Notes under the pieces: model-generated
Database searches by the model: none
Told to the model about the DNA's origin: nothing
Seen by the model: the letters and a program-made list of their open reading frames with translations, nothing else
In this document: positions 1,150 to 6,322 of the stretch, in pieces
How positions within the stretch are numbered: position 1 is the first letter of the stretch
Layout of the letters: each line of letters starts with the position of its first letter
Source of the DNA: Chloroflexota bacterium
GTDB taxonomy: Bacteria; Chloroflexota; Dehalococcoidia; Lucifugimonadales; UBA826
DNA length: 9,124 bases
Direction: 5' to 3'
NCBI GenBank assembly: GCA_002718095.1
Contig: PBDP01000005.1
Coordinates: 1 to 9,124 of the forward strand
Position numbers and translations under genes: made by a program

Positions 1150-3195
<2,046 letters not shown>

Positions 3196-3235
3196 TCATT
3201 TTATACTATAAATCCAGTTTGTCGGCATTTATATC

Positions 3236-3265
3236 TTGTTAAACATGCACTAAATCATTTAATAT
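3236..3265 (+). promoter_or_regulatory. Candidate promoter for the cysteine synthase leader
   Basis: TTGTTA at 3236-3241 and TAATAT at 3260-3265, separated by 18 bp, each match the sigma-70 consensus at four of six bases. Transcription would start close to 3272, which is also the A of the small leader ORF's ATG. In such AT-rich DNA chance matches are common, so this rests partly on its agreement with the ORF and terminator downstream. Confidence 0.35.
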
Positions 3266-3271
3266 TGTTAT

Positions 3272-3340
3272 ATGAACTTAAATATAAATGACATAATCAA
3301 CTGTTCTTGTAGAAGCTTATATATCTCTTCGGGCGGTTAA
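3272..3340 (+). CDS. Candidate 22-aa cysteine-containing leader peptide
   Basis: An ATG at 3272 opens 22 codons ending in TAA at 3338-3340. Residues 10-15 read NCSCRS and the end reads SSGG, so it has two Cys codons (3302-3304 and 3308-3310) separated by one Ser, plus three further Ser codons. No Shine-Dalgarno sequence precedes it, but the best promoter candidate would start the RNA at or next to this ATG, so it could be translated leaderless. It is followed 30 bases later by a strong terminator and then by a cysteine synthase homologue. Cys-codon leader ORFs that act as cysteine-responsive attenuators are known from mycobacteria. The role here is inferred from order and codon content only. 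A chance ORF of this length is not unlikely by itself. Confidence 0.45.
   Translation: MNLNINDIINCSCRSLYISSGG
3299..3338 (+). promoter_or_regulatory. Possible leader RNA hairpin covering the Cys codons
   Basis: AACTGTTC (3299-3306) can pair over eight positions, including G-U pairs, with GGGCGGTT (3331-3338). An inner GAAG/CTTC stem (3312-3315 with 3327-3330) is possible. The 5' arm contains the first Cys codon and lies beside the second. A ribosome stalled there would open this stem and free TCGGG (3329-3333), which is complementary to CCCGA (3381-3385) in the terminator 5' arm and loop. This is a hand-drawn pairing without any energy calculation. Confidence 0.35.
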
Positions 3341-3369
3341 ACTTGTTTTAAAAATAGTCAAATTAGACA

Positions 3370-3401
3370 CTAAAAAAGCCCCCGATAGGGGGCTTTTTTA
3401 G
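3370..3401. terminator. Perfect bidirectional intrinsic terminator
   Basis: CTAAAAAAGCCCCC (3370-3383), a GATA loop, and GGGGGCTTTTTTAG (3388-3401) form a perfect 14-bp stem. The core is six G-C pairs, with a run of six T on the 3' side on both strands, so it can end transcription in either direction. It sits between the divergent ligA and cysteine synthase genes, only 20 bp before the latter's start codon. It cannot be an ordinary end-of-gene terminator for any annotated plus-strand gene. It could be an attenuator for the plus-strand leader, or stop antisense read-through from gyrB, or both. Confidence 0.93.
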
Positions 3402-3421
3402 TTTAAAGGAATATTTAAATA

Positions 3422-6322
<2,901 letters not shown>

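Follow-up and report, generated by a model that had tools for sequence, protein, structure and literature searches.

The leader of a cysK/cysM-like gene in a SAR202-cluster Chloroflexota genome is probably a lineage-specific ribosome-mediated attenuator and is likely to respond to cysteine; the complete reading, in which transcription of the gene is attenuated by a translating ribosome with cysteine as the inferred signal, is favored at somewhat better than an even balance. If this is true, leader-peptide attenuation of a cysteine gene would be added to the Chloroflexota, beside a Tyr/Phe attenuator, and one lineage would have swapped an ancestral promoter-based control of cysK for an RNA-based one. 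Abundant in the deep ocean, SAR202 bacteria have mostly not been cultured, and their regulation must therefore be read from sequence. A literature search for attenuation in SAR202 found no report.

The window, that is, the whole stretch of 9,124 nucleotides that was analyzed, opens contig C5 of a host genome of 1.44 Mb, whose closest relatives are SAR202-cluster Chloroflexota/Dehalococcoidia and whose genus comprises this one genome only. The contig is AT-rich (34% GC) and 93% coding. The divergent ligA-cysK pair is kept across about 30 SAR202 relatives, usually with gyrB next to it. The genes and leader elements of the window are the following:

1150-3189, minus strand: ligA
3236-3265, plus strand: weak promoter-like pair, TTGTTA (3236-3241), 18 nt, TAATAT (3260-3265), with 8/12 matches
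3272-3340, plus strand: candidate leader ORF of 22 codons, MNLNINDIINCSCRSLYISSGG, from ATG 3272 to TAA 3338-3340, without a Shine-Dalgarno sequence
3299-3306, plus strand: segment 1 (AACUGUUC), predicted to pair with segment 2 in the untranslated leader fold
3302-3310, plus strand: Cys-Ser-Cys codons TGT TCT TGT (codons 11-13), the proposed stall site
3329-3338, plus strand: segment 2 (UCGGGcGGUU), 5' strand of the predicted antiterminator, covering the last codons and the first base of the stop codon
3369-3402, plus strand: intrinsic terminator with 15 perfect pairs, loop GATA (3384-3387) and U-tract (3394-3399)
3377-3385, plus strand: segment 3 (AGCCCCCGA), common to the predicted antiterminator and the terminator
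3405-3410, plus strand: Shine-Dalgarno-like AAAGGA of the structural gene, 11 nt 5' of GTG 3422
3422-4366, plus strand: cysteine synthase family (CysK/CysM-like) gene, with start codon GTG at 3422
4355-6301, minus strand: gyrB, overlapping the end of cysK, on the same strand as ligA and pointing at it
Elsewhere in the window: a lipoprotein-like ORF (minus strand) and, as further genes, a dehydrogenase-like gene, panB and panC

The structural gene had been assigned to the cysteine synthase family from the letters alone and placed 20 bp past a terminator, and profile and structure matches now agree with that assignment. Its best profiles are TIGR01138 cysM (307 bits, with a cut-off of 394) and TIGR01136 cysKM (305 bits, with a cut-off of 344), and its best relatives with a solved structure are cysteine synthases (E 1e-56). 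Because no cysE gene scores above the curated cut-off in the host genome, the substrate of the enzyme is uncertain and may be other than O-acetylserine. A scan of viral contigs for close relatives of the gene returned none.

An attenuator should carry an intrinsic terminator in the 5' leader just before its gene, and one is present here, with a hairpin energy of -25.0 kcal/mol and its end 20 bp before the GTG codon. The inverted repeat is perfect, as had been described, and comprises 15 pairs rather than 14. Its GCCC/GGGC core is unique in the host genome, and the whole cysK leader folds far better than its shuffles (z -4.5), mostly owing to the terminator. That the hairpin is a product of chance, or a weakly acting relic with no regulatory role, is highly improbable: although it is conserved in no relative, no other terminator-like hairpin in the first 400 kb of this 93%-coding contig is as strong, and the hairpin is placed in the same way as the T-box terminators of ileS and ilvB, at 20-47 nt before the gene.

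The hairpin is also symmetrical, with T-tracts on both strands, and is thus terminator-like in either direction. This symmetry would suit an arrangement in which it serves mainly the minus strand, or both strands, and ends gyrB read-through antisense to cysK before ligA is reached, with the cysK promoter overlapping the hairpin or with partial read-through. The end of cysK is overlapped by gyrB, which lies on the ligA strand and is directed toward ligA, and this position fits such a role. However, family members with the ligA-cysK-gyrB order, some of them with gyrB abutting cysK, are without such a hairpin; the ileS T-box terminator is equally symmetrical, so symmetry is no sign of two-way use; and the 20 bp between the hairpin and the cysK start are too short for a promoter. 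We therefore consider a minus-strand function unlikely.

A short ORF with codons for the amino acid of the pathway is likewise found in the leader, with a probability of about 3% of arising by chance. The 22-codon ATG ORF with a Cys-Ser-Cys run that had been reported before the terminator is present at 3272-3340, with its Cys codons at TGT 3302-3304 and TGT 3308-3310. In the host genome, 18/533 intergenic ATG ORFs (3.4%) contain C-x-C, as do 3.2% of Markov leaders. The ORF holds two Cys codons that are non-adjacent (C-S-C) rather than a contiguous run of the mycobacterial type; within its sensing stretch, Cys codons are no more frequent than those for Ser (2) or Ile (2).

Given that chance alone would place a C-x-C ORF in about 3% of such leaders, and that the sensing stretch contains Ser and Ile codons too, the hairpin might instead be a conditional cysK terminator governed by another sensor, the Cys-Ser-Cys codons being a coincidence. 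Such a sensor could be a small molecule, a protein antiterminator, or a leader peptide that senses Ser or general translation, and the nusA and glnA leaders of the same genome do carry terminators without a recognizable leader peptide. We rate this explanation as rather unlikely, since the ORF ends where segment 2 lies and Rfam yields no riboswitch or T-box in the window at gathering score, its low-scoring matches being of the terminator type only. These are sub-threshold Phe and Thr leader matches (28 and 26 bits, with a cut-off of 55) that are confined to the terminator and its immediate flank. A T-box (RF00230) reading of the cysK leader was rejected, with no match at gathering score nor down to E 5.

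The original prediction had also relied on a promoter-like pair whose predicted start falls on the ATG, and this part was not confirmed. The pair at 3236-3265 has 8/12 matches and is missing from the scan list of promoter sites with at least 9/12, and the six pairs of at least 8/12 within 3190-3340 are not above chance when 5.0 are expected in shuffles. The ATG at 3272 comes 6 nt past the pair, and a true promoter there would make the ORF leaderless.

The remaining element is a predicted antiterminator that cannot coexist with the terminator: a stalled ribosome would leave it free to form, whereas a ribosome sitting on the stop codon would mask it. Where about five pairs had been proposed, the fold gives a longer duplex, in which 3329-3338 pairs with 3377-3385 over 9 bp with C3334 bulged, at -14.0 kcal/mol for the duplex alone (nascent-RNA fold 3316-3386). 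The two states of the proposed switch are both recovered by RNAfold: when the RNA 5' of 3316 or 3322 is covered, as it would be by a ribosome stalling on codon 11 or codon 13, respectively, and the 3' arm of the terminator is absent, the antiterminator forms (-12.5 kcal/mol including small hairpins), whereas with the ribosome at the stop codon it is gone and only the terminator folds. As to how unusual this antiterminator is, 0.25% of mononucleotide shuffles are as good, and under dinucleotide shuffles the figure is 0.8-14% depending on the window, so that it is only modestly unusual. Of 40,000 leaders simulated with a first-order Markov model, 7 combined a C-x-C ORF with a masked antiterminator at least as strong as -12 kcal/mol, and 0.19% had any ORF together with a masked antiterminator of -14 kcal/mol; both thresholds were fixed after the case was seen. 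In a survey of the host genome restricted to intergenic terminators of -18 kcal/mol or stronger at most 120 nt before a gene, the strongest masked antiterminators are those of cysK (-14.0) and DAHP synthase (-13.2), while the opposite strand of the cysK hairpin offers one of only -2.1. Since the terminator (-25) is the more stable of the two, the predicted antiterminator (-14) would have to win kinetically. The hairpin described as overlapping the Cys codons does exist (3299-3306 with 3331-3338, -9.1 kcal/mol), but 10% of shuffles match it and it is no better than chance.

These elements can be assembled into the following mechanism. Transcription would start near 3272, and a ribosome would begin the 22-codon ORF at or near the 5' end of the RNA. 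When Cys-tRNA is ample, the ribosome would reach the stop codon at 3338 and cover segment 2 (3329-3338); with a standard footprint, a ribosome at 3338-3340 would occupy about 3323-3350 and so hide this segment, the terminator at 3369-3402 would form, and RNA polymerase would stop short of the gene. Under a shortage of Cys-tRNA, the ribosome would stall at codons 11-13, leaving segment 2 free to pair with 3377-3385 once these bases are made, which would block the terminator and allow cysK to be transcribed. In untranslated RNA, a classical 1:2 hairpin would form between 3299-3306 and 3331-3338. The sequence itself contains the ORF, the terminator and segments complementary to each other, all with the right spacing. 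We infer that cysteine, rather than another amino acid, would be the signal, a specificity read from two codons in one genome. The attenuator mechanism as first proposed is plausible and partly supported, more strongly than the original prediction had assumed: its architecture is coherent and is strengthened by its genomic context (the DAHP synthase attenuator described below), which does not extend to its promoter and leaderless part.

Comparison with relatives points to a lineage-specific element. Across 250 genomes of the order, no homologue of the cysK leader turned up, only short AT-rich matches, and among 80 related loci no convincing Cys leader or comparable terminator plus ORF was found before cysK. 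Homologous leaders that keep the terminator and lose the Cys ORF had been named as evidence against attenuation; homologues in the family are without both, so they speak neither way. Most relatives carry a conserved SAR202 cysK promoter, T[A/G]GAC..-N14/15-GATATACTC, which scores 19-27 bits and lies 40-110 nt before the aligned gene start in the host's family and in other SAR202 families (loci L034-L036, L038, L041-L046, L048 and L050-L068). In the window, the best match to this promoter reaches 4.3 bits, compared with 3.2 +/- 3.4 in shuffles. Its absence is consistent with a replaced regulatory region, and the cysK element is taken to be lineage-specific because relatives carry this other promoter and are without the terminator and the Cys ORF. 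Quick replacement of the sensing systems before one gene has been documented (PMC2965389). It is very unlikely that a degenerate form of the ancestral promoter (TCAACTG 3297 / TATATATCT 3318) has been kept, with transcription starting near 3330 and the Cys-Ser-Cys ORF untranscribed. Although this site has the right spacing and few positions in the window score higher against the family motif, it scores 0-3.3 bits versus 19-27 in most relatives, which is not above shuffles, and the terminator would still separate such a start from the gene.

In one sister genus, loci L035, L042 and L046 show a hairpin of 7-9 bp, for example AGGAGACAG-TTCTT-CTGTCTCCT followed by ATTATTTTG, about 30-60 nt before cysK and just 3' of the cysK promoter. 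This hairpin is partly compensated between species and could be a weak terminator or operator.

Strong intrinsic terminators are few in the host genome, about 98% of which was covered by the terminator survey, and those just before amino-acid-related genes precede ileS, ilvB, DAHP synthase, glnA and the cysK-like gene. The leaders concerned outside the window, together with that of nusA, are as follows:

G000:C2:131147-131368, minus strand: T-box leader before ileS
G000:C2:207904-208230, minus strand: T-box leader before ilvB
C2:268719-268902, minus strand: third T-box, below the cut-off
G000:C2:245443-245479, plus strand: strong leader terminator 33 nt before nusA
G000:C2:168550-168586, plus strand: strong leader terminator 23 nt before glnA
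G000:C5:150670-150799 (L121:10670-10799): DAHP synthase attenuator, host copy, with relatives at L187-L189 and L192-L200

Rfam scores the T-boxes of ileS and ilvB at 115 and 101 bits, and their terminators lie 24 and 47 nt 5' of the gene, respectively, that of ileS being as symmetrical as the cysK terminator, and T-boxes occur in 16/16 genomes of the host's family. The nusA and glnA leaders show no obvious leader peptide, and the glnA terminator is a weaker one than the others before amino-acid genes; both leaders are candidates for other kinds of antitermination.

The DAHP synthase leader, judged by its sequence, reads clearly as a near-leaderless Tyr/Phe leader-peptide attenuator and is better supported than the cysK one. 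The host copy consists of TTGACA-N17-TACCAT, nine bases, the codons GTG TGT TAT AAC TAT TTT ACA TAT TAT TAC TTT... and a terminator. Its leader peptide (like MENKFYENTHMFYYYFSSLSQLPLKDLCKL), with a YYYF/YYF core followed by an LP motif, is found in 13/15 family genomes that have DAHP synthase. Most family leaders have a TTGACA-N17-TATACT promoter 9-12 nt before the leader start, and the ATG comes 11-12 nt past TATACT/TATACC in most of them, leaving no space for a Shine-Dalgarno sequence. The antiterminator CUGCCGA:UCGGUAG shows compensatory changes, with 86% of cells paired versus 18-61% when slid; shuffled-column controls were indecisive because the sequences are close relatives. A model of this leader, searched over 247 genomes of the order, recovers family members and little else, and Rfam gives no match at gathering score on the host copy. 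Given the T-boxes and this conserved attenuator, antitermination, including the leader-peptide kind, is a normal mode of regulation in the lineage.

The DAHP model also matches the cysK leader end to end (28 bits, E 0.02, ranking second in the genome); its YYF-SSL codons align with CSC-RSL codons, and the score beat 200 shuffles. With a leader-only profile that omits the terminator, other intergenic regions outscore the cysK leader. As the terminator carries much of the match, a common origin of the two leaders is not claimed. In its most far-reaching form, the proposal would be that the cysK switch is a recent, leaderless, cysteine-sensing attenuator in Chloroflexota that in one lineage took the place of the ancestral SAR202 cysK promoter, perhaps as a copy of the DAHP Tyr/Phe attenuator with its stall codons changed (YYF-SSL to CSC-RSL), and this we hold to be distinctly unlikely.

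The attenuator favored here can be compared with several known systems. It had been proposed as a cysteine attenuator outside the known groups, a claim that has to be softened, since a Cys-codon leader with a terminator is known before cysS (PMC8632094). That motif, uORFC-8-2 of Rhodobacterales, is a conserved one that combines a Cys-codon leader with an intrinsic terminator in 145 examples (PMC8632094). It resembles the cysK leader in its short ORF with two Cys codons in the first stem (codons 14-15 there, 11 and 13 here), in its intrinsic terminator with a U-run and in the ribosome-mediated attenuation proposed for it, and differs in phylum, in gene (cysS) and in having tandem Cys codons and 145 examples, compared with Cys-Ser-Cys in one genome here. 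In mycobacteria, poly-Cys leaderless sORFs are, as the work of Canestrari et al. 2020 is cited in PMC9031893 and PMC13236596, cysteine-responsive attenuators that act at the level of translation. On that account, they share with the cysK leader a short ORF, only putatively leaderless for cysK, that contains Cys codons and precedes cysteine-biosynthesis genes, but attenuate translation, whereas in the cysK leader the Cys codons number only two and a strong intrinsic terminator is present. Actinobacterial cys operons carry leader peptides with Cys runs and without a conserved terminator (PMC1262725). Within the host genome, the ileS and ilvB T-boxes (RF00230) are similar in that they respond to amino acids by antitermination at an intrinsic terminator lying directly before the gene, although they are tRNA-sensing RNAs with a conserved fold, to which the cysK leader has no match. 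The DAHP synthase attenuator of the same genome likewise has its leader ORF near the promoter (which for cysK is only putative) and a segment 2 that falls within the final third of the ORF and is predicted to pair with the 5' arm and loop of the terminator; its terminator, too, lies shortly before the gene, at 45 bp. It differs in its Tyr/Phe codons and in being kept in 13 genomes with covariation.
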